Assembly (NCBI RefSeq): GCF_035581365.1
Contig: NZ_CP141590.1
Coordinates: forward strand, 1,240,001-1,304,000
DNA from: Tsuneonella sp. CC-YZS046
Lineage (GTDB): Bacteria; Pseudomonadota; Alphaproteobacteria; Sphingomonadales; Sphingomonadaceae
DNA: 64,000 bases
Reading direction: 5' to 3'
The stretch's first letter is position 1, and the number at the start of each line of letters is the position of its first letter. The notes under the pieces are model-generated. The model made no database searches. It was given only the letters and a program-made list of their open reading frames with translations, and was not told the DNA's origin. Shown in pieces: positions 7,581 through 40,214 of this stretch. The position numbers and the translations under genes are program-made.

Positions 7581-8356
7581 TGCTGATCGATTCCCATTGC
7601 CACCTCGAATATGAAGGGCTTGCCGAAGATCAGGACGGAGTGCTTCGCCGGGCACGGGAAGCAGGCGTCGCCGGCTTCCTGAACATCTCCACGCGCCGCA
7701 GCGAATGGGAGCGGGTGATCGGAACGGCCGAGCGGGAAGAGGACGTGTGGGCCAGTGTCGGCATACATCCCCATGAGGCGGATGCCCATTCGCAGATGGC
7801 CCTGGAGGCGCTGCTGGAAGCGACCGAGCACCCCCGCGTCATCGGAATTGGCGAAACCGGGCTCGATTATTATTACGAGAAGTCGGATCGGGACGTCCAG
7901 AAAGCGCTGTTCCGAACCCATATCAAGGCAGCCAGAAAGACGGGGCTTCCGCTGATTATCCACACGCGCGACGCGGAGGCCGACACAACCGCCATCCTCC
8001 GGGAAGAAATGGCAAAGGGCGCGTTCCCCGCCTTGATCCACTGCTTCACCGCTTCAGCCAAATTCGCGCGCAATGTGCTGGAACTGGGGCTGAGCATTTC
8101 GCTTTCCGGCATAGTGACCTTCAAGAATGCGCGGGAATTGCAGGATGTGGCCCGCAATCTCCCCGCAGATCGCCTGCTGGTGGAAACCGACGCTCCCTTT
8201 CTCGCACCCGTTCCTCACCGGGGGAAAACCTGCGAACCGGCATTCGTGGCGAATACGGCTGCGTTCCTCGCCGAGCTGCGAAGGGAGGACCCGGAGCAAA
8301 TGGCGGAGATGACAACGAAAAACTTCTACAAGCTGTTCAGGAAAGCGGCTGCGTGA
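7580..8356 (+). CDS. TatD family metal-dependent hydrolase
   Basis: The 258-residue protein is a TIM-barrel amidohydrolase of the TatD/YcfH family (3'-5' DNase activity in characterised members). It has the HxH metal motif near the N terminus (DSHCHLE), GIGETGLDYYY, HTRDAE, HCFTAS and ETDAPFLAP. ATG 7580 overlaps the metG stop; an in-frame GTG one codon earlier is less likely. Confidence 0.93.
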   Translation: MLIDSHCHLEYEGLAEDQDGVLRRAREAGVAGFLNISTRRSEWERVIGTAEREEDVWASVGIHPHEADAHSQMALEALLEATEHPRVIGIGETGLDYYYEKSDRDVQKALFRTHIKAARKTGLPLIIHTRDAEADTTAILREEMAKGAFPALIHCFTASAKFARNVLELGLSISLSGIVTFKNARELQDVARNLPADRLLVETDAPFLAPVPHRGKTCEPAFVANTAAFLAELRREDPEQMAEMTTKNFYKLFRKAAA

Positions 8357-9120
8357 AGTTGATCATGCTTGGTTCGGGCACGTCAACCGGCGTGCCCCGC
8401 GTAGGCAATGATTGGGGCGCCTGCGACCCGTCCGAGCCGCGCAACCGGCGGACGAGAGTATCCATCGTGGTAGAAAGCGACGAAGGCTCGCGTCTGCTGG
8501 TCGACACTTCGCCGGACTTGCGCAGCCAGCTCCTCGACAATGAGATCGACCGGCTCGATGCGGTTTTCTGGACCCACGACCATGCGGATCATTGTCACGG
8601 GATCGATGACCTGCGCGCATTGCGTTACGGCAGAAGCGGGCCATTGCCGGGCTTTGCCGCGGAAGAAACCGTGAGAAGGCTGCGTCAGCGCTTCGGCTAT
8701 GTCTTTGCGGGGCAATTCGGCTATCCGACCATTGTGAATCTGGATTCGCTGGATCGGTTGCGGATGTTCGCGGGCATTCGCATCGACACCTGCCAAATGG
8801 CGCACGGGCCAGCCCAAAGCACGGGATTTCGCTTCGATCAGAATGGAAAGTCTATTGGATATGCCACTGATTTCAGTGAAATCTCCGATAGCATGATCGG
8901 TCTTTTTCGCGACATCGGGATTCTCGTAGTCGATTGCTTGCGGCGCGAACCGCATCCGACCCATGCGCATCTTGCGATGGCGCTCGAACTGGCCAATCTA
9001 TGCGGCGCACGGCAGACCGTGCTGACCCATCTGGACAAGAGCATGGATTATGGCGCGCTTTCGGCGGAAGTGCCCGCGAACGTCTTGGTCGGTTATGACG
9101 GATTGAGGCTCCTGGCATGA
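8353..9120 (+). CDS. MBL-fold metallohydrolase (PhnP/RNase Z-like)
   Basis: The 255-residue product has the metallo-beta-lactamase signature THDHADH at about residues 74-80 and a downstream LTHLDKSMDYG histidine. The N-terminal MLGSGTSTGVPR is typical of the PhnP-like phosphodiesterase group found next to tatD. Translation starts at GTG 8353 (GTGA overlap with tatD). The substrate is unknown; a cyclic phosphodiester or RNA end is plausible by family. Confidence 0.86.
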   Translation: MKLIMLGSGTSTGVPRVGNDWGACDPSEPRNRRTRVSIVVESDEGSRLLVDTSPDLRSQLLDNEIDRLDAVFWTHDHADHCHGIDDLRALRYGRSGPLPGFAAEETVRRLRQRFGYVFAGQFGYPTIVNLDSLDRLRMFAGIRIDTCQMAHGPAQSTGFRFDQNGKSIGYATDFSEISDSMIGLFRDIGILVVDCLRREPHPTHAHLAMALELANLCGARQTVLTHLDKSMDYGALSAEVPANVLVGYDGLRLLA

Positions 9121-9560: not shown

Positions 9561-9588
9561 ATTTAACATAATATATATTATCATCCCG
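9561..9588. other. dif-like XerC/XerD site at left prophage junction (attL)
   Basis: The sequence reads ATTTAACATAA, TATATA, then TTATCATCCCG. The first arm and most of the spacer match the reverse complement of the proteobacterial dif consensus (XerD arm ATTTAACATAA, 6-bp centre, XerC arm starting TTAT). The left arm is host sequence; the right arm after TTATCAT comes from the phage. With the right junction at 14220-14234 it defines the inserted element. The uninterrupted host site would be ATTTAACATAA + TATATA + TTATCATTCTG, so this window likely contains the chromosome dimer-resolution site. Confidence 0.8.
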
Positions 9589-9599
9589 GACTTCAGTTT

Positions 9600-9619
9600 A
9601 AAAAAGAGGCTCTCGCCTC
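9600..9619 (-). terminator. Intrinsic terminator at the end of the phage gene block
   Basis: On the minus strand GAGGC-GAGA-GCCTC is followed directly by six T residues. It overlaps the stop codon of the basic protein gene and would end transcription of the rightmost phage cistrons before the attachment site. Confidence 0.85.
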
Positions 9620-9842
9620 AATACTTTGCTTTTCCCGGCTTTTTCGCTTCGGTCTGGATCATCGGACCGATGGCCCGCGAAACATTGGAGACCGGGATTT
9701 GCTCCACAACAATGCGGAGCGTCTGGGCGCTTACACGACTACCAGAACGGCGCCGACTTGCCGTGCTACGTCGAGCACGACGGGCGGGAGAACGCCGACT
9801 TGTGTAAGAACGCCGACGGCTGCTAGCGCGACGGTAAGCCAT
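9618..9842 (-). CDS. Basic J-like DNA-packaging protein of the microvirus
   Basis: The 74-residue product has an arginine/serine-rich N-terminal half (about 16 arginines in the first 36 residues) followed by a short hydrophobic strand (QTLRIVVEQIPV) and a lysine-rich tail. Size and charge fit the small DNA-binding protein that Microviridae package with their ssDNA (protein J of phiX174, or the small basic ORF of gokushoviruses). An AAGGAAGG ribosome site lies upstream of the ATG. It starts 20 nt after the stop of the preceding gene and is the last cistron before the terminator. Assignment is by composition and context. Confidence 0.7.
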   Translation of the reverse strand: MAYRRASSRRRSYTSRRSPARRARRSTASRRRSGSRVSAQTLRIVVEQIPVSNVSRAIGPMIQTEAKKPGKAKY

Positions 9843-9861
9843 TTAGTCAATCCTTCCTTCA

Positions 9862-11205
9862 TTACCAAACTGCCTTCAAATCTACCTGCGCGTCCAACAT
9901 GGCCTGCAGGTAATCGTTAAACTCCATCATCGAATGATCGAGCGCCGACCCCGTATTGCGAGGGATCGTCCGGTTTATATAGCCGAGAATTTTATCCTGT
10001 ATCTCGTTCTTGATGATGTTTTCCACAGCTGTCTGAACATCGACCTTATGGAAGTTGTGGTAAAGCGCCTGCGCTTTGCAATCAGCATTGTCTATGCCGT
10101 ATTGTCCCGCCTGATCGATACCGAAATCAGAGCGGTTACACTTCCACTTCTTGCGGGTTTCCTCAGGCAAAGCCTCATACAACGCGTCAACGACTTCGGC
10201 ACTTTCTGACATCTTGTCCAATATCTTGAACAAGGCAATGCCGATCCGCGCGGAACGCGACAGCATCTTGCGTTCACGCTCACGACGACGCGGCGGCCTT
10301 CGGCGGCGCGGCCGCGCGGGATAGATACCGGACAGACCAATAGTCTTAGCGACAGCAACCGCAGGTTGCGTCTCGGTTGCGGTATCCGTTGCCAGATCAG
10401 GCTTAGGCTCCAACTCAGGCACGGTTGGCATACCCCGCATGACATTAGGGTTCATCGCCGTGCCGATGGCGGGCGCTGGCTGCATCTGCACCTCATAATG
10501 TTCCGGCACCTCATCGACATAGGGAGGCTCAACCCATGTCGTTTTCTTGAGCCACCGCTGAGACGGACGCACGTCCTTCCAACCATTGGTGCGCACCTCA
10601 TACATCTCGTAATTGATCGAATTCGGCCAAGGCGGGGCCAACGTAACTACCCGTGGTGCCCAGCGGGTCCCCTCAACATTGTAGCTTGGCGAGTAAGGTG
10701 CCACCGAGCCACAGGAGCTATACCCCTGATTAAGAGCCGGAGATTGAAGCGGACGGTTACAGTCCAGCACGAGATCATAACTCGGCTTCCAATTATAATA
10801 TCCCGGCTGATACGGCTTGTGCTTGAAATGGTAATACCACGCATCATAGCCGTCCAGATTGTCCTTTAGGTCCATAAGCGGACCCAGCCACGGAACAATA
10901 CGCCGCCCCAAGCCACCGAAGCGAGGGCCACGCGCAGGGAGGCGATACGGCGGCAACTTCTTTGGGGCGGACGTAGGAGACGGAGAAGCCTTAGGCTCCT
11001 TGAACCAGTCAGGCTTCTCAGGTGGCCATGTGCCTATCTGAGGCGCACGGCGGTGCGCGGGTAAAACCCGCTTACCCGGATTTAAAGGCCGATGCTTAGG
11101 CGACTTATAGCCCGGATCGCCTTCCGTTTTCGGAACTGGCACATCGGCAAAATCGGACGGGCGGAACTTCTTAGTCGCGCCCTGTTCAATAACTTCGTTG
11201 CTCAT
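9862..11205 (-). CDS. Microvirus protein of unknown role, candidate pilot/structural protein
   Basis: The 447-residue product (450 if the GTG at 11214 is used) is not recognised. The first ~270 residues are rich in proline, tryptophan and tyrosine (for example YDAWYYHFKHKPYQPGYYNW). A polybasic stretch follows near residues 310-325 (RPRRRRPPRRRERER), then a helical C-terminal domain of about 120 residues with two cysteines. It occupies the place where a microvirus usually has its DNA pilot (VP2/H-like) or minor structural protein. The polybasic patch may contact DNA. Typical VP2 features such as an N-terminal membrane helix and long coiled coil are not obvious, so the role is inferred from position only. 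Confidence 0.6.
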   Translation of the reverse strand: MSNEVIEQGATKKFRPSDFADVPVPKTEGDPGYKSPKHRPLNPGKRVLPAHRRAPQIGTWPPEKPDWFKEPKASPSPTSAPKKLPPYRLPARGPRFGGLGRRIVPWLGPLMDLKDNLDGYDAWYYHFKHKPYQPGYYNWKPSYDLVLDCNRPLQSPALNQGYSSCGSVAPYSPSYNVEGTRWAPRVVTLAPPWPNSINYEMYEVRTNGWKDVRPSQRWLKKTTWVEPPYVDEVPEHYEVQMQPAPAIGTAMNPNVMRGMPTVPELEPKPDLATDTATETQPAVAVAKTIGLSGIYPARPRRRRPPRRRERERKMLSRSARIGIALFKILDKMSESAEVVDALYEALPEETRKKWKCNRSDFGIDQAGQYGIDNADCKAQALYHNFHKVDVQTAVENIIKNEIQDKILGYINRTIPRNTGSALDHSMMEFNDYLQAMLDAQVDLKAVW

Positions 11206-11249
11206 TTCATACACCTATCAACAAAAGACTTTATCGTGGTCAAAACGAG

Positions 11250-11267
11250 GTAGGGTCACTACCCTAC
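11250..11267. repeat. Perfect inverted repeat between rep and the 447-aa gene
   Basis: GTAGGGT-CACT-ACCCTAC is a perfect 7-bp dyad in the 150-bp gap between the replication gene stop (11356) and the next phage start (11205). On the minus strand a short T-containing stretch follows. It could be a weak terminator/attenuator or an operator for the downstream phage genes. Confidence 0.55.
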
Positions 11268-11355
11268 ACTCTTGGGTTTGCGGAGATCGCTTCCGCTCCC
11301 CCTTCCCCTTTTGACAGAGGATTTCCCTTCCGGGTGCGGTTTGCCCGCTCCCGCG

Positions 11356-12171
11356 TCACTGCTTCGCTGCGTTCCGTATCAAGCCTGCGGGCTGTCCATA
11401 CCGCCGAGACGCTCTAACGCGCGTCATGGCGGACTTGCTGATGTATTTGCAGACATACCCAACATGGGCGACTTCACCCGCTGGAACGAGCCGAAAATTG
11501 GAGAAGCCGTAGCTCCACTTTTCTTCCAGCGTTCTCTTAGCTACGGGCTGTCCCCGTTCATGCAAGAGAAGGTGGAAGTGCGGAAACTCGTCTTTGTGTG
11601 GTTCGCACACAAGCAAATACCTCAGTTGCGCGCGTGACGCTTTGCGCACACGCTTCATCCATCGCGTGACCTCAGGCTGTAGCTCCCGAGCGATGGCGCG
11701 GGTCCGTTCAACGCTGCTTAGGCTCGACAGGCTTTCGCAGCGGGTGTTGGACACCCGTTTGTCGGCCAGCATCGTCGCCTGAAAACGGCGTTCAGGCGAG
11801 ACGGTCAGAGTGCCGAACCATGTTCTCATCGACCAGCGGACCTCATCCATTGCCCGCGCCGTCCAGAGGCGGCGCTTGTGAGCAAGGCACCGAGCGCACT
11901 TGCGGCAACGGACCCGGACGTAGACCGTCCGGGTTGCCGGTTCCTTAAAGTCACCGAGCATTCCATGCCCCTCGACATAATCGAGGTCATCATCGTCTTG
12001 CCATTGGCCAAGACGGGCCAGTGCCACCGATCCCACCCCGCGCAAGGCGCGGTCAACAGGCGACAGGCAGTCGCCATGCATCTCCGCAGCGTCGGAGCCT
12101 GCGATATGCGCTTGCCACGCATAGTCCGTTGCGGTTCGCAGGGGGATTTGAGGGATCGGCTGTGAGCGCAC
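11356..12171 (-). CDS. Microvirus replication initiation protein (HUH endonuclease, VP4/gpA-like)
   Basis: The 271-residue protein nicks viral dsDNA to start rolling-circle synthesis. Characteristic microvirus Rep features are visible: a cysteine/arginine block C89-x2-C92-x2-C95 followed by HKRRLW and R106, the HUH metal motif HFH at 198-200 (FPHFHLLLHE), and the two-tyrosine motif Y239-x2-KY-x2-K (GYVCKYISK) supplying Y239 and Y243 as nucleophiles. The start is GTG 12171; an internal ATG at 12081 is the alternative. Upstream lies a strong dyad (12186-12231). Confidence 0.9.
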   Translation of the reverse strand: MRSQPIPQIPLRTATDYAWQAHIAGSDAAEMHGDCLSPVDRALRGVGSVALARLGQWQDDDDLDYVEGHGMLGDFKEPATRTVYVRVRCRKCARCLAHKRRLWTARAMDEVRWSMRTWFGTLTVSPERRFQATMLADKRVSNTRCESLSSLSSVERTRAIARELQPEVTRWMKRVRKASRAQLRYLLVCEPHKDEFPHFHLLLHERGQPVAKRTLEEKWSYGFSNFRLVPAGEVAHVGYVCKYISKSAMTRVRASRRYGQPAGLIRNAAKQ

Positions 12172-12185
12172 AGGGTGGTGTCACT

Positions 12186-12231
12186 TGTGCAGGTATAATC
12201 AAGTCCCCGCTTCGCGGGATATAACTGCACA
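12186..12231. promoter_or_regulatory. Nested dyad upstream of the phage rep gene
   Basis: The outer arms TGTGCAG (12186-12192) and CTGCACA (12225-12231) are perfectly complementary. They enclose a second hairpin, CCCGC-TTC-GCGGG (12206-12218), and a TATAAT hexamer at 12194-12199 on the plus strand. It lies 15-60 bp before the rep start in a 195-bp non-coding gap, the longest in the phage. It could be the replication origin, a repressor site or a leader structure; the sequence alone does not decide. Confidence 0.5.
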
Positions 12232-12366
12232 GATTGAGCGGGCTTATCAGGGACGCGGGAGGCCATCGGACTGGAACCGCTCGGCTCCCCCCGCGTGGAG
12301 ACGTCCAGACAAGACCAGACGCCGTAAGGGGTAAGCGTTGGGGGCGACTGCCCCCAACACCCCCGA

Positions 12367-12483
12367 CTAGTTGTCGTTTCGGGCATAGTGCGCGATGTCA
12401 CGCCTTTGCCAGTATGGCAGCACGAACAACGACATGAGACAGGTCATGTTGCGATGCCGGAGAGAGTGCCAGAACCTACTCAT
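12367..12483 (-). CDS. 38-residue phage ORF, possible lysis or packaging peptide
   Basis: The ATG overlaps the stop of the DUF2778-like gene (ATGA), which suggests translational coupling. The 38-residue product has a basic N terminus (MSRFWHSLRHRN), a short hydrophobic core (MTCLMSLFVLPYW) and a charged tail. Small ORFs at comparable places in microviruses encode lysis peptides or packaging factors. There is no sequence match that I recognise, so existence is supported by the overlap and function is unknown. Confidence 0.45.
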   Translation of the reverse strand: MSRFWHSLRHRNMTCLMSLFVLPYWQRRDIAHYARNDN

Positions 12484-12869
12484 GGCACGACCGTCAGAAC
12501 GGGATCGGCTCCAGCGAGTAATTCTCGCCGGAGTCGTAATCGAGCGGCGCGGTCGATAACGATACATCCCGTGGATGCACTCCGGTTTCTGGCTCGGTTG
12601 TCCCCGTGTATCCAGAAGCCGGTTCGACCGAACGTTTCGGTTCCTTCGAGCGGGACGAGCGCATAGGCCGGATACGCGAAACGCGGATGCGAACGCTCGT
12701 AGATGCGATAACGACCTTGAGGGATCGGTCCGCATGACCGAACTCGAGCCTTCTCAGGATCATTAATGCAATCCTTAGCCCCAGCGTAGCCAATGGCGAT
12801 AATGCCAGCGCCTGAGCCGCGCTCAGACACGAGCCTTCCACTACGGGTTTCATAACGGAAGCCCCCCAT
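12480..12869 (-). CDS. DUF2778/L,D-transpeptidase-like peptidoglycan enzyme of the microvirus
   Basis: The 129-residue product carries marks of the DUF2778 (Tlde1-like) cysteine peptidase/transpeptidase fold: GPIPQGRY at 47-54, FWIHGD with H88, and a STGCIVI loop with C102, the expected His/Cys catalytic pair. Relatives act on peptidoglycan tetrapeptide stems. No signal peptide is visible. The ATG at 12869 overlaps the capsid gene stop (TGATG); an in-frame TTG at 12884 is less likely. Directly after the capsid gene, it is a good candidate for host lysis or DNA entry. A hydrolase of this family is unusual for Microviridae as far as I know. Confidence 0.75.
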   Translation of the reverse strand: MGGFRYETRSGRLVSERGSGAGIIAIGYAGAKDCINDPEKARVRSCGPIPQGRYRIYERSHPRFAYPAYALVPLEGTETFGRTGFWIHGDNRARNRSASTGCIVIDRAARLRLRRELLAGADPVLTVVP

Positions 12870-14170
12870 CACTGCGCAACCCAAGGACCGGCTTGCGTCT
12901 CGCGAACCTTTCCCTGGATATGCAAGGAAACGTATCCGTCCTGGCGGACATGGTTCGCACCAGCTTCCGAAACAAACAGGCCCTTGGCCATGGCCTCGGT
13001 CGGATATTTGTAATCCTGATGATTGTCGCCCGGAGGCAACGCGAGCAGGTGATTGGCATAATCAGCCGCCAAAGCCGCGTTGTCAGTCCATGCCTTCATA
13101 TTCTGGAACTGATCCCCATGCAGGAACAAATCACGCATCTCGACCCAATAGCTATCGGTCGCGGTCGCACGATCCCCGAGAGGACCGCCGTCAGCCGCGA
13201 ACTTTTTGAAAGCCGTGTCTGGCAAAGGAATGATCGAATTTTCGTTAAGATAATTCGGTATCCAGTCCCATGCCCGCGTCAGGTGAGCCGCAAGATTGCC
13301 TGCCAGACCGCCGAAGTAAACCTTCGGCCGCGTGATCGACAAACCGATAACAAATCCGGGTTCCTTAAAGAACTTCGGATCGCGCTTGCCGTTCTTGAAC
13401 ACCCAAGACACGGCAGAAGACGGTGAACCATCCGCCGGATTAATCGTGTTACTCGGATATTGGAAATCCGAATAGCGCGCGAGCAATTCCGGTTTCTTCT
13501 CATCAACAGCTTCAGGCACCGTAATACCATACGAGCGTATGAAATCCTCATACGACATATCAGCCACGCCAATCTGGCGGAGCTGATCGTAAGCCTCATA
13601 GAGCGCCTGCAATTGCTCCATATTGGTCGGACTATCGCCAGTAGCACCCGGATCAGTCGCCAAAGGCGCATCGTCCTTATCCGTGATGCTATCCAGCCAG
13701 AGACGATCGCGGATTTGCACGATGGGCATACCATCGGCAGTTAGATAATCCCCGAACGCTTCACCTTCGTCCCTGAAATGCGCCTCAATAATTGAGATGA
13801 CCGAGCGCTTGAGATAGTCAACGCCGCCCTTCGCCGTATACCAAGGGCCGGACGAATTGGCGACACCGAGCGTTGCGGAAATATCCGTGTTGAGCGGATC
13901 AATGAACATCTCCCTGATTGCATCCACCAACAGCAAAGTCACCGGCACGTAGAAGAAGTAATATTCCTTCTTCCAACCGATGATCGAGTTTTTGATGGGA
14001 TCAGAAATAACCCGGCTCTCGAAATACAGGTTCTTGAGCGTCTCGCCCGGAAGCACCGGCGCGATCATAAACGGTTGCGCCGTGAACGGGATTTCCTTCG
14101 TCATAAAGGGGTGCTTGGGATAACGCCCGACGCGTTCGGTCGGGTTCAATGGCGTCAATGCACGTGCCAT
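12869..14170 (-). CDS. Microvirus major capsid protein (VP1/F-like)
   Basis: The 433-residue protein is recognised as a Microviridae major capsid protein. It has an N-terminal ...HPFMTKEIPFTAQPF segment, PVLPGETLKN, then ESRVISDPI and WKKEYYFFYVPV, the conserved order in VP1 of alphaproteobacterial and gokushovirus-like phages. It is shorter than gokushovirus VP1 (about 530-570 residues), implying smaller surface loops. GGAG lies 8 nt before the ATG on the minus strand, at the foot of a hairpin (14173-14197). It is the first gene after the attachment site and is coupled to the enzyme gene by TGATG. Confidence 0.93.
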   Translation of the reverse strand: MARALTPLNPTERVGRYPKHPFMTKEIPFTAQPFMIAPVLPGETLKNLYFESRVISDPIKNSIIGWKKEYYFFYVPVTLLLVDAIREMFIDPLNTDISATLGVANSSGPWYTAKGGVDYLKRSVISIIEAHFRDEGEAFGDYLTADGMPIVQIRDRLWLDSITDKDDAPLATDPGATGDSPTNMEQLQALYEAYDQLRQIGVADMSYEDFIRSYGITVPEAVDEKKPELLARYSDFQYPSNTINPADGSPSSAVSWVFKNGKRDPKFFKEPGFVIGLSITRPKVYFGGLAGNLAAHLTRAWDWIPNYLNENSIIPLPDTAFKKFAADGGPLGDRATATDSYWVEMRDLFLHGDQFQNMKAWTDNAALAADYANHLLALPPGDNHQDYKYPTEAMAKGLFVSEAGANHVRQDGYVSLHIQGKVRETQAGPWVAQ

Positions 14171-14172
14171 CT

Positions 14173-14197
14173 GGACTTCTCCATAGAGAAGAAGTCC
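14173..14197 (-). promoter_or_regulatory. Leader hairpin before the capsid gene
   Basis: GGACTTCT and AGAAGTCC are perfect 8-bp arms around a 9-nt loop. The ribosome site GGAG lies partly in the loop and partly in the 3' arm, only 8 nt from the capsid ATG, so folding could limit capsid translation. The arm shares sequence with the terminal inverted repeat (CCCGGACTTC/GAAGTCCGGG) of the element. Confidence 0.55.
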
Positions 14198-14219
14198 GGG
14201 AATTTCACATATTCGCAGG

Positions 14220-14234
14220 AATATATATTATCAT
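14220..14234. other. Right attachment repeat (attR) abutting mazG
   Basis: AATATATATTATCAT repeats positions 9570-9584 exactly. Left of it, phage sequence (ATTCGCAGG) replaces the host XerD arm; right of it, TCTG is the host continuation of the XerC arm. The mazG ATG begins 6 bp after the repeat. Confidence 0.85.
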
Positions 14235-14240
14235 TCTGAT

Positions 14241-15023
14241 ATGTCCGAACAGCTTCATCGCCTCCTCTCGATAATGGCCCGCCTGCGCGATCCGGAGCAC
14301 GGCTGCGAATGGGACCGCGCGCAGGATTTTGCGACGATAGCGCCCTATACGATCGAGGAGGCCTATGAAGTTGCCGACGCAATCGCGCGGGCCGACTTCC
14401 AGGAGCTGCGCGAAGAGCTTGGCGACCTTCTGCTGCAAGTGGTGTTCCATTCGCGCATGGCGGAAGAAGCCGGCCTGTTCGATTTCGAGGATGTCGCTCG
14501 CTCTATTGCCAGCAAGATGGAAGCTCGCCACCCCCATATCTTCGGCGACGGTGCTTCCGGCGAGGAAGATCGCGAAACGCGCTGGGAAGCGATCAAGGCC
14601 CGGGAACGGGCCGCCAAGGGCGCCAGCAGCGCGATGGACGGGATCGCTCTCGCGCTTCCAGCGCTCCTGCGCGCCGAAAAGCTCCAGAAACGCGCCGCCC
14701 GGGACGGCTTCGACTGGCCCGATCCAGACGGCCCTGCCGCCAAACTTTCGGAAGAGGCCATGGAACTGGCCACGGCATCCTGCGACGATACCAGATTGGA
14801 GGAAGCGGGCGATCTCCTGTTCGCCGCGGTCAATCTGGTGCGGGCTTACGGCATAGCGCCGGAAGACGCCCTGCACGCCGCAAACCGCAAGTTCGAGCGG
14901 CGATACCGCGCGATGGAAGCCCTGGCAGGCCGGCAGGGCCGATCCTTCGCGGGGCTTTCCCTGGAGCAACAGGAAAGGCTGTGGCTGGACGTGAAATCGT
15001 CAGAGAGTGACAAAACGCCCTAG
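14241..15023 (+). CDS. mazG: Nucleoside triphosphate pyrophosphohydrolase MazG
   Basis: The 260-residue all-alpha enzyme hydrolyses (d)NTPs to NMP and PPi and can lower (p)ppGpp or clean oxidised nucleotides. Two MazG domains are seen: the first with CEWDRAQDF, TIEEAYEV and EELGDLLLQV, the second with KLSEEAMEL and EEAGDLLF. The start is fixed by the conserved N-terminal pattern (LLSIMARLRDP). It lies 6 bp after the prophage junction, with no good ribosome site nearby, so the prophage now supplies its leader. The 3' end overlaps the convergent hflX end by 24 bp. Confidence 0.94.
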   Translation: MSEQLHRLLSIMARLRDPEHGCEWDRAQDFATIAPYTIEEAYEVADAIARADFQELREELGDLLLQVVFHSRMAEEAGLFDFEDVARSIASKMEARHPHIFGDGASGEEDRETRWEAIKARERAAKGASSAMDGIALALPALLRAEKLQKRAARDGFDWPDPDGPAAKLSEEAMELATASCDDTRLEEAGDLLFAAVNLVRAYGIAPEDALHAANRKFERRYRAMEALAGRQGRSFAGLSLEQQERLWLDVKSSESDKTP

Positions 15024-37509: not shown

Positions 37510-37614
37510 CCAACCGCCTTCCCTGAGCAGGCAGCAACGAGTCAACCGAATTAGGCATCGATTAACGTCTTTGGCCTAAGCGGACCATTGGGGAATAGTG
37601 TCAAGGACGACCAG

Positions 37615-39618
37615 ATGACGCAACGGGGCGAATTCCGGGAAGGTTTGTTCAAGCGGCTTATCGAGGATCGCGCGGGCAATACGCTTGCGATCGTGGCCGC
37701 TTCGACCTTGCCCATGATGGCGATTATCGGCGGCGGCGTGGATATCAGCCGGGCCTATATGGCGAAGACGCAATTACAGTCCGCCTGCGACGCGGGCGTG
37801 CTGGCCGGGCGCCGCGCAATGAGCAAGACGTCCGAATATGGCGAGGACGAAAAGGACAAGGCGAATGCCATGTTCGACTTCAACTTCGATGCGGACGCCG
37901 TCCAAGCCGATGACATCACCTTCGAATCCGATGACAATGACGATGGCCAGGTGCTGGGCACCGCCACGGCCACCGTACCGACCGCCATCATGAAGATCTT
38001 CGGAAAGACCGAGATCGAGTTGCAGGTCGACTGCATGGCCGAATTGCAGCTCGCCAATGTCGATGTGATGTTCGTGCTCGACACCACCGGCTCCATGTCT
38101 GGGTCAAAAATCGAAGGCTTGCGGGATGCCGTGCGCGATTTCCATGCGACGTTGGCGACCGCTGTGACCGATGCCGAAACGCGCGTACGCTATGGCTTCG
38201 TGCCTTATTCAATGACAGTAAACGTAAGCGAACTCATCAGTACTGGCACCATGCCACTTTCCTATATAGCTGATGAAGGGACATACCAATCGCGCACAGC
38301 ACTGTTCGATACATCAGCATTGGTTGGTGTTCCTGAAACGCCAGTCAACACCACCGAATGGTATGGCGGTGCAGATAAAATTAAAATCTCCAGCAGCAAT
38401 TGCACAAACTATGGGAAGAATACTTTCCCCAGCGGATCAGGTGGAACACCTATAAATTCAGGTGGCCCTGCCCCAGCAGATACCATAAAAACGGAATACT
38501 CCTATGGCGGCAGAGGCTCAGAAAGCGGGAGCAATAAATCTTGCTGGAGAAATGTAAAAACAACAACTACTTCCTATCATACAAAGTATGAGTTTACGAA
38601 GTGGAAGTATGCTCCGATTACGCTGGACACTTCTGATTTTAAAACTGGATCATCTGTAAAACTAGTTTCAGAGAGTAGCTCAGCTCTAAATTCCGCATAT
38701 GTTGACACACCAGGTTGGTACGACACCCACCAACTAGCCAGGAAAACCGGTGTATCGGGCACAGGTGTTACCGGCGTAACAACGCGATCAGTGACATGGG
38801 GCGGCTGCATAGAAGAAGCCGATACTGTGGAAACCGATGACTTCAATCCGGTGCCGGATGAGGCATATGATCTCCATATTAATCTTGAGCCGGATAGTCT
38901 TGAAACCCGCTGGAAACCAATCTGGTCTGATGCGACCTTTATGCGAAGCAATAAATCTGGTGAATATTACGATGGCCGTGAACTGTCTTTAGCATACCCA
39001 ATTAACCCAGATGGGAAGAATTCGAATGGATCTGATGACAAGACTTATACCACAAGTATAGGTGAGAATTGCCCTGCACCTATGAAACTGTTTCAGACAA
39101 TCGACCTATCCAGCACTACTGTTCCCACGTGGCTCAACACATATCTGAATAATTTAGTTGCGGTCGGCAACACCTATCATGATATAGGTATGATCTGGGG
39201 TGGGAGACTTGGAAGTTCACGAGGTATATTTTCAGATAATGTTAACGAAGGAATTGATGACGGTTCAATTCGCTCAGTTAGCAGGCATTTGATATTTATG
39301 ACTGACGGCAAGATGGAGCCAACTCTAACTGGATACTCAGCCTATGGTATCGAGAAGTATGCGAACAAGATCGCTCCACGCTTGAGTTCTACTTCAACAG
39401 TCACATCAAGACACAACCTTCGCTTCCGGGCAGCATGCGATGCGGCAAAAGCGGAAGGATACATTATCTATGTCGTGGCATTCGGCACAACTGTCAGCAA
39501 CGACATGAAATATTGCTCGAGCGACAACCGCTGGTATTATTCAGACAATACCGCCAGCCTGCGCAACACCTTCAAATTCATCGCCTCGCAGGTGGCCGAT
39601 CTGAGGCTGGGCGCATGA
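37615..39618 (+). CDS. TadG-like pilus assembly protein with von Willebrand A domain
   Basis: The 667-residue protein starts with a TadE/TadG-type N terminus (EDRAGNTLAIVAASTLPMMAIIGGGVDISRAY) giving one membrane helix. A von Willebrand A domain follows, beginning MFVLDTTGSMSG (MIDAS) and resuming near FMTDGKMEP at the C-terminal end. Between them lies a roughly 400-residue insert rich in Ser, Thr, Gly and Tyr whose DNA (about 38200-39480) is much more AT-rich than both ends. It overlaps the following TadE gene (ATGA). Likely secreted or surface-exposed and linked to Flp-type pili; the rest of the tad cluster is not in the window. Confidence 0.85.
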   Translation: MTQRGEFREGLFKRLIEDRAGNTLAIVAASTLPMMAIIGGGVDISRAYMAKTQLQSACDAGVLAGRRAMSKTSEYGEDEKDKANAMFDFNFDADAVQADDITFESDDNDDGQVLGTATATVPTAIMKIFGKTEIELQVDCMAELQLANVDVMFVLDTTGSMSGSKIEGLRDAVRDFHATLATAVTDAETRVRYGFVPYSMTVNVSELISTGTMPLSYIADEGTYQSRTALFDTSALVGVPETPVNTTEWYGGADKIKISSSNCTNYGKNTFPSGSGGTPINSGGPAPADTIKTEYSYGGRGSESGSNKSCWRNVKTTTTSYHTKYEFTKWKYAPITLDTSDFKTGSSVKLVSESSSALNSAYVDTPGWYDTHQLARKTGVSGTGVTGVTTRSVTWGGCIEEADTVETDDFNPVPDEAYDLHINLEPDSLETRWKPIWSDATFMRSNKSGEYYDGRELSLAYPINPDGKNSNGSDDKTYTTSIGENCPAPMKLFQTIDLSSTTVPTWLNTYLNNLVAVGNTYHDIGMIWGGRLGSSRGIFSDNVNEGIDDGSIRSVSRHLIFMTDGKMEPTLTGYSAYGIEKYANKIAPRLSSTSTVTSRHNLRFRAACDAAKAEGYIIYVVAFGTTVSNDMKYCSSDNRWYYSDNTASLRNTFKFIASQVADLRLGA

Positions 39619-40214
39619 CCCGGCTGCTCCGCCGCATCGGGCGCGCCAGCGACGGCGCCACGCTGGTCGAGTTCGCTCTGGTCGCCCCCGTGTTCTTCGC
39701 CCTGCTGATGGGTCTCTTCGATCTGGGCCAGAGCGTCTATGTGCGCTCCACCTTGCAGGGCGCCCTGCAGGAAGGCGGCAGAAACTCCGGCCTGGAAAGC
39801 GGATCGCTCAATGAAACGGCCATCGACGATTATGTCCGCGACCAGGTGCAGGCGGTGACGGGCAGCGCGCGCGTCGAATTCGAACGGCTCAATTACCGGG
39901 ACTTTTCGAATGTCGGCACGCCGGAAGATTTCACCGACAGCAACGGCAACGGCGTTTACGATGCGACCGAGTGCTTTTTCGATGCCAACGGCAACGGCGA
40001 ATGGGATACCGACAGGGGTGTCGAAGGCCTTGGCGGCGCGAACGACGTCGTGGTCTATACCGCCACGGTGACCTACCGCCGCATCTTCCCCTTCTGGGAA
40101 CTGATCGGCCTCGCGCCCATCACTCGCATTTCCGCTTCGACCATCCTGCGCAACCAGCCCTTCAGCACGCAAGACGTGCGCCAGACAACGCAGATCTGCC
40201 CCCCAAGTGCGTAA
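39615..40214 (+). CDS. TadE-like pseudopilin
   Basis: The 199-residue protein has the TadE signature near the N terminus (DGATLVEFALVAPVFFALLMGLFDLGQ) with a single hydrophobic helix cleaved or anchored as in prepilin-like proteins. A calcium-binding-like stretch follows (DSNGNGVYDATE, DANGNGEWDTD), the pattern of dockerin/EF-type loops. It is coupled to the VWA gene by ATGA and overlaps the next TadE gene. Confidence 0.85.
   Translation: MTRLLRRIGRASDGATLVEFALVAPVFFALLMGLFDLGQSVYVRSTLQGALQEGGRNSGLESGSLNETAIDDYVRDQVQAVTGSARVEFERLNYRDFSNVGTPEDFTDSNGNGVYDATECFFDANGNGEWDTDRGVEGLGGANDVVVYTATVTYRRIFPFWELIGLAPITRISASTILRNQPFSTQDVRQTTQICPPSA

Follow-up and report, generated by a model that had tools for sequence, protein, structure and literature searches.

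The window analyzed here, 64,000 nucleotides of Tsuneonella sp. CC-YZS046 (contig NZ_CP141590.1, positions 1,240,001 to 1,304,000), carries a microvirus prophage lodged precisely in dif, where the cell resolves its replicated chromosomes. The 4,650-bp unit together with both junctions occupies positions 9561-14238 of the window and is inserted exactly in the chromosomal site, where it is bounded by two hybrid dif sites, attL and attR (Table 1). Joining these restores a native dif: the reconstructed empty site (attB; the left XerD arm and centre followed by the right XerC arm) is identical at 28/28 positions to the empty dif of G187, a genome from another genus (locus L012), and the gene order around it is shared. 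The phage was very probably integrated by the host recombinases XerC and XerD, which would have left the hybrid attL and attR behind, and by its capsid and gene order we class it as an integrated member of the proposed subfamily Amoyvirinae.

The first-pass annotation of this DNA had described a 4,650-bp unit flanked by a 15-bp direct repeat and placed in dif, and both parts of that description were borne out. The repeat, AATATATATTATCAT, lies at 9570-9584 and 14220-14234, 4,650 bp from start to start, and is present only these two times in the whole genome of 3,353,183 bases. When the 5.2-kb region is shuffled with a first-order Markov model, 8 of 500 replicates also contain an exact 15-bp repeat; the repeat alone is only moderately rare, and the case therefore rests on dif. 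Each copy lies in the middle of a 28-bp dif-like site (9561-9588 on the left, 14211-14238 on the right), and these sites, which share it, are again 4,650 bp apart. As it stands, attL agrees with the native dif of relatives at 26/28 (L012), 27/28 (L016) and 27/28 (L017) positions, and at 18-25 of 28 in the other seven loci; attB agrees with the native dif of nine relatives besides G187 at 19-27 of 28 positions. The annotation had made its reading depend on finding the 15-bp repeat in the dif of uninfected relatives, and the full 15-mer is contained in four of the ten empty sites read (L011, L012, L016 and L017). Of 396 genomes searched in the order, 159 contain a 17-mer dif core, AACATAATATATATTAT, with at most one copy in each genome listed and zero in the columns of the reversed control. 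The cumulative GC skew of the window reaches its maximum at about 10 kb, at dif, as is expected of a terminus.

The same neighborhood is seen where the site is empty. A metallo-hydrolase gene, an empty dif, then mazG and hflX make up the arrangement at eight of the ten loci read (L010-L017), which represent three genera; of the remaining two, L008 has mazG only, at greater distance, and at L009 none of the flanking genes was seen. Other genomes with the same insertion had been proposed as a check, and one is at hand: G188, of another genus, whose prophage occupies this very locus and is flanked by the host genes seen beside the window copy. Two further prophages, in G122 and G587, likewise lie between dif-like sites.

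Six open reading frames (ORFs) of 43-447 amino acids, all open and all on the minus strand, encode the capsid protein, a Tlde1-type putative lysin, an HUH replication-initiation protein (Rep), a 447-amino-acid protein, a predicted membrane protein and a J-type protein (Table 1). This agrees with the six uninterrupted genes annotated on one strand, and the lack of an integrase that was claimed with them also stands, as no recombinase was found among the unit proteins tested against Pfam and PHROGs. The claim of a recognizable Microviridae capsid and Rep holds without reserve for Rep, in both Pfam and PHROG; for the capsid it holds by sequence identity, the Pfam score being under the cut-off. 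The count of four genes besides capsid and Rep is right for these six ORFs, and misses a probable seventh, nested gene that is described below.

Table 1. Features of the prophage, its attachment sites and the adjoining host genes (window coordinates)
Feature	Position	Strand	Remarks
Left host flank, metallo-beta-lactamase-fold hydrolase	8353..9120	+	Pfam Lactamase_B_2; same neighbor at relatives' empty dif
attL	9561..9588	+	Host XerD arm ATTTAACATAA, centre TATATA, phage XerC arm TTATCATCCCG; still resembles a complete dif
Terminator-like hairpin and T-run	9606..9619	-	End of phage genes; the region has 8 sites of this kind (shuffle expectation 4.8)
J-type basic protein, 74 aa	9618..9842	-	tblastn matches in G587, P1 and FLY; in G188 second half only
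Predicted membrane protein, 43 aa	9731..9862	-	Overlaps J in another frame; hydropathy 2.0
447-aa protein	9862..11205	-	Homologue of P1 gpD; first part proline/arginine-rich, last third conserved
HUH replication-initiation protein, 271 aa	11356..12171	-	GTG start; Pfam REP_ORF2-G2P E 1.7e-13 (above cut-off); PHROG 942 E 7.5e-18
Tlde1/YkuD-type protein, 129 aa	12480..12869	-	Pfam Tlde1_dom E 1.4e-14; motif HGDN...SASTGC (by eye)
Nested +1-frame ORF, 119 aa, candidate holin-like lysis gene	12494..12853	-	Conservation highest at about 12674-12853; a single hydrophobic stretch
Major capsid protein, 433 aa	12869..14170	-	The three best annotated Microviridae capsids are 56-57% identical over 97%; PHROG 514
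attR	14211..14238	+	Phage XerD-side arm ATTCGCAGGAA (degenerate), centre TATATA, host XerC arm TTATCATTCTG
Right host flank, mazG	14241..15023	+	Pfam MazG E 3e-36; same neighbor at relatives' empty dif

Among annotated microvirus records, 24 match the capsid protein, 22 of them over at least 80% of its length, with a top identity of 57%; PHROG 514 (major head protein) is matched at E 4.8e-5. Neither a profile of seven capsids nor the Tlde1-type protein found a match among PDB sequences, and an AlphaFold2 model of the capsid, built from a four-row alignment, was too poor to be used (mean predicted local distance difference test score 33.7). The Tlde1-type protein is probably a peptidoglycan-acting lysin, judging from its domain and motif; its start overlaps the capsid stop in TGATG, just as the stop of the 447-amino-acid gene and the start of the membrane-protein gene overlap in TAATG. 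The 447-amino-acid protein has no match in Pfam or PHROG, and no VP2 pilot protein is recognizable in it, but tblastn finds it in the P1, Flyfo, Rattus and Manatee microvirus records, in G188 and G587 and, weakly, in G122; it is possibly a minor virion protein. The J-type protein, for which no family was matched in Pfam or PHROGs, is basic and probably DNA-binding. A 191-amino-acid ORF (11826-12401) overlaps Rep, and a 122-amino-acid ORF (12367-12735) was dropped as a gene candidate, having no Pfam or PHROG family match.

A small hydrophobic ORF over the J gene, in another frame, can be seen in the ORF lists of the window, G587, P1, RAT, MAN and L032 (2974-3159); in G587, MAN and L032 it starts exactly 17 bases before the J start.

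The capsid phylogeny against Microviridae that had been suggested for this protein places it, in a tree of 16 rows, within a clade of seven that has support 100/100 and comprises the window, P1 (vB_Cib_ssDNA_P1), the animal-associated Flyfo and Rattus records, a spring record and the prophages of G188 and G587. The prophage of G122 falls outside this clade, and at least two changes of the label "sphingomonad prophage" are required on the 16-capsid tree. A microvirus-type capsid, an HUH rolling-circle Rep and a unit length that fits a circular single-stranded DNA genome all speak for Microviridae, and the order capsid, gpB, Rep, gpD, gpE, gpF is that of Amoyvirinae, the equivalence of gpE being based on position, overlap and hydrophobic stretch rather than on a scored alignment. 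The absence of a recognizable VP2 pilot protein is described as a feature of this subfamily in passages of PMC9239249.

Capsid searches covered 397 genomes of the family (with the single protein) and, with profiles, 396 of the order, 385 of the class and 4 and 195 of two genera; these sets overlap, and the larger groups were sampled. The relatives found are in G188 (78% identity), G587 (63-65%) and G122 (41%, or 37.5% by tblastn), with a partial one in G1125. The class-wide profile search returned only the window's own genome (1/385), and plasmid records held no capsid relative. From IMG/VR, 0 of 52 candidate stretches were confirmed with the single-capsid query and 2 of 73 with the profile query, while 1 of 18 candidates was confirmed in a collection of genome contigs.

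The slot between capsid and Rep holds either a Tlde1-type gene or an M15-type peptidase, depending on the relative (L007, 4301-4786, typed by Pfam; L032, 4597-5004, and L033, 1226-1735, both typed by eye), and in L007 and L032 the gene in the slot is on the strand opposite to the capsid. In G122, an M15 peptidase on the opposite strand replaces the Tlde1-type gene. We take the slot, which was typed in part by eye, to be an exchangeable lysin slot.

The state of these relatives bears on whether the window prophage is still a phage. It might be a cryptic remnant, an old insertion in dif that no longer excises or forms particles, and two of the three complete relatives are indeed broken: the G188 prophage has lost J's first half as well as the end of the 447-amino-acid gene, and the G122 prophage has a Mutator-type transposase in the region of the 447-amino-acid gene. 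The window's attR is, moreover, a poor dif. None of the damage found in G188 and G122 was seen in the window copy, however, whose six ORFs are open and which retains its start-stop overlaps, its J gene and a terminator-like hairpin. The ratio of nonsynonymous to synonymous differences (pN/pS) against G188 is 0.23 for the capsid and 0.31 for Rep (0.65 for the lysin gene and 0.67 for the 447-amino-acid gene), so that differences in capsid and Rep are mostly silent, though much of this divergence may predate insertion. We consider a dead remnant unlikely, while giving it more weight than any other alternative discussed here.

The probable seventh gene is a 119-codon ORF nested in the +1 frame of the lysin gene, starting at the ATG within the TATGA of the lysin's Tyr-Glu codons. 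Its counterparts have 110 codons in G188 and 120 in G587 (126 from an earlier ATG), and in all three prophages the +1 frame is stop-free from its ATG to its own end. Synonymous randomization leaves this frame open in 7-18% of cases per genome, three genomes being randomized, and openness alone is thus weak evidence. Over 60 residues, the nested ORF is conserved as well as or better than the lysin: identities out of 60 are 44 for window-G188, 32 for window-G587 and 35 for G188-G587, compared with 34, 30 and 28 in the lysin frame and with averages of 20.7, 16.8 and 17.7 in a null model that redraws synonymous codons (in these nested-frame comparisons the lysin starts used for G188, G587 and P1 are provisional, and G587 has no clear in-frame lysin ATG between the capsid stop and the conserved part). 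The maximum z in 60-codon windows of the lysin +1 frame is 7.4, 5.8 and 6.6, whereas no window in either alternative frame of the control genes (capsid, Rep and 447-amino-acid gene) exceeds 3.3. Identity at fourfold sites in the first 90 alignment columns of the lysin gene is 20/26, 16/24 and 17/21; the capsid gene has 68/154, 52/133 and 49/131 (one-sided Fisher values 0.0017, 0.011 and 0.0002); for the whole lysin gene the two-sided values are, in the same order, 0.021, 0.34 and 0.0055.

Conservation at the level of the bases could also stem from a DNA or RNA element, such as an origin, a packaging signal or a regulatory structure, with no second protein involved. Both alternative frames of the lysin gene do exceed the controls, as such a constraint would give, the +2 frame with maximum z values of 5.7, 5.0 and 3.3; shared bases would produce such an elevation. 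The pattern of codon positions is mixed over codons 35-65, and the +1 frame of P1 is without amino-acid conservation. Over codons 5-35, however, the third position of frame 0 is the most or equal most conserved (0.83, 0.77 and 0.77) and the first position, which is the wobble position of the +1 frame, is the least conserved (0.60, 0.57 and 0.53) in 3/3 pairs. This is the reverse of normal coding, and over codons 95-130 the wobble position is least conserved, as normal. The +2 frame is also full of stops in all three prophages and the +1 frame has none, for what openness is worth. A nucleic-acid element is on this evidence improbable, and the nested ORF is probably a gene.

Conservation of the nested protein in P1 was ruled out (9/60 identical, null mean 10.8); in that phage the +1 frame is open and has a hydrophobic stretch at the same place, without sequence conservation. 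Phage records searched with the nested protein yielded nothing, even with E values up to 10 allowed. A single hydrophobic stretch (mean hydropathy 1.82-1.96 over 19 residues) makes it a predicted one-helix membrane protein, perhaps a holin. In phiX174, gene E lies within gene D, and it is by analogy with this arrangement that we guess at a role in lysis for the nested ORF.

The four complete prophages have in common how their junctions are put together. The J-side site is ATTTAACATAA-TATATA-TTATC... in the window, G188 and G122 and AATTAACATAA-CTATTA-TTATC... in G587, combining in each case a host XerD arm with a phage XerC arm. On the capsid side, the phage XerD-side arms read ATTCGCAGGAA, ATTAAACACTC, TGATAACACTA and GTTTAACAAAA. 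All four phage XerC arms retain TTATC, and all four phage XerD arms lack the T at arm position 9, with damage at 3 to 6 of 11 positions overall. The centre is TATATA in three prophages; in the fourth it is CTATTA, identical at both ends.

This last prophage lies at 6140-10640 of L025 (contig 3 of G587, 632 kb), where the dif-like sites have the CTATTA centre; such a site is possibly the dif of a second replicon.

In our reading, the asymmetry reflects integration led by XerC, after which one dif is competent and the other poor. The double-stranded replicative circle would bear a dif-like attP whose XerC half-site is good and whose XerD half-site is degenerate, and host XerC and XerD would recombine it with the chromosomal dif, XerC most likely making the first exchange. 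The phage would thereby come to lie between attL, with its host XerD and phage XerC arms usable as the new chromosomal dif, and attR, whose poor XerD arm would allow only poor excision. The lysogen probably retains one good dif, because TTATC survives on the phage XerC arms and the phage XerD arms have lost the same T. After excision, six to seven genes would probably be expressed together, the HUH Rep serving rolling-circle replication and the lysin and nested membrane protein acting alongside the capsid, the 447-amino-acid protein, the membrane protein and J. The host has candidates for the recombinases, an XerC-like gene at 1.20 Mb and an XerD-like gene at 1.00 Mb, whose best equivalog models are XerC and XerD respectively with both scores under the model cut-offs; the XerD-like protein passes the general recombinase model PRK00283. 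Homologous recombination or a plasmid- or phage-borne integrase is a very improbable substitute for XerC and XerD: the genome does have other tyrosine recombinases (10 PF00589 matches, the two Xer-like ones included), but the hybrid sites of four prophages break between the dif arms, with a host arm to one side of the break and a phage arm to the other, and the unit proteins tested include no recombinase.

Several observations weigh against a temperate microvirus integrated in this way. The capsid's match to Pfam Phage_F is weak (E 5.8e-4, under the curated cut-off); that model matches just 2 of 7 relatives' capsids at E 0.01, and the capsid assignment is firm because of the identity to annotated Microviridae capsids, not because of the Pfam match. 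The dif sits 39% of the way round from dnaA rather than 50%. With up to 4 mismatches to the 17-mer allowed, no dif-like site was found in four relatives' phage records, one of them linear, and integration is therefore not a trait of the whole lineage. As assembled, a Novosphingobium metagenome-assembled genome, probably of the same family as the window genome, has a relative inserted in reverse at this dif (L005, 5913-5980), its capsid side being joined to the host XerD arm and centre, which the simple arm rule does not predict; the palindromic centre TATATA would allow this orientation, but the contig, whose coordinates match those of the G1125 relative, stops within the capsid gene. The integration, excision and particle formation proposed here are, finally, deduced from sequence, and so is the temperate lifestyle.

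A more far-reaching proposal, for which our confidence falls a little short of even, is that a temperate sub-lineage of Amoyvirinae carries a gene for a one-helix membrane protein nested in the +1 frame of its Tlde1-type lysin gene, so that holin and lysin would share the same bases, and enters dif by an asymmetric attP (good XerC arm, broken XerD arm) after which the host would retain a single working dif. The junctions point to a simple rule under which a phage lacking an integrase could persist at a chromosomal site that is indispensable to the cell, and the nested gene is a concrete candidate for the lysis route of these very small phages.

Elsewhere in the window, a low-GC stretch (37588-40214; 49-53%) encodes a 676-amino-acid protein with a TadG-like beginning and a TadE-like neighbor, both judged by eye.

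Dif-integrated microviruses are known from other groups. In enterobacterial gokushovirus prophages (EC6098), dif integration requires host XerC and XerD, as was shown with mutants, and these elements have a conserved upstream dif and a downstream one that varies in spacer and XerD arm, whereas in our four prophages the spacer is the same at both ends and the phage XerD arm varies (Kirchberger and Ochman, 2020; PMC7062461, in the passages on these sites); they belong to another subfamily of Microviridae and to another host class. A dif microvirus in an alphaproteobacterium, which had been put forward as new, has a published precedent in Rhodobacter phage Ebor (proposed Tainavirinae), described in passages of PMC11980548 as a prophage flanked by XerCD/dif motifs and encoding a lysin. 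Ebor differs in size (6.6 kb), in its position in the cbbII operon and in its subfamily. Further alphaproteobacterial microvirus prophages are reported in parts of PMC8224337 and PMC8682789, and parts of PMC9512667 and PMC10190252 deal with Amoyvirinae from rhizobia, in one of which an endolysin is annotated.

The closest comparison is with P1 (MG214764, from Citromicrobium), in which all six genes have counterparts, arranged alike, with a Tlde1-type gene after the capsid and a capsid 56% identical; its gpB, annotated as hypothetical, matches Pfam Tlde1_dom at 8.3e-12. The claim that the window adds a lineage with a different gene set is thus not supported, and the lineage itself is described in the relevant passages of Zheng et al. 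(2018; PMC6030365), according to which the P1 host belongs to the Sphingomonadaceae, as does ours, and P1 was isolated as a free, plaque-forming phage, unlike the window prophage; no dif-like site was found in the P1 record. The same passages describe a prophage of this lineage in Novosphingobium tardaugens NBRC16725, without an integrase, for which use of the host dimer-resolution machinery was inferred; our comparison with it is by description, dif junctions being absent from those passages. In the open-licence full-text literature we found neither base-exact dif junctions nor a nested lysin gene for the P1/Amoyvirinae-type lineage, nor any paper combining Microviridae with Tlde1, or Microviridae with XerC and Sphingomonas; by title, none of the open-licence papers on overlapping genes, holins or endolysins of Microviridae concerns the P1 lineage. 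To a lineage for which those passages inferred the use of host machinery, the present analysis brings base-exact junctions, an empty-site control and four comparable prophages. The lineage, its gene set and the Novosphingobium prophage have been in print since 2018; the dif junctions and the nested gene are the part for which the literature searched gave no precedent.

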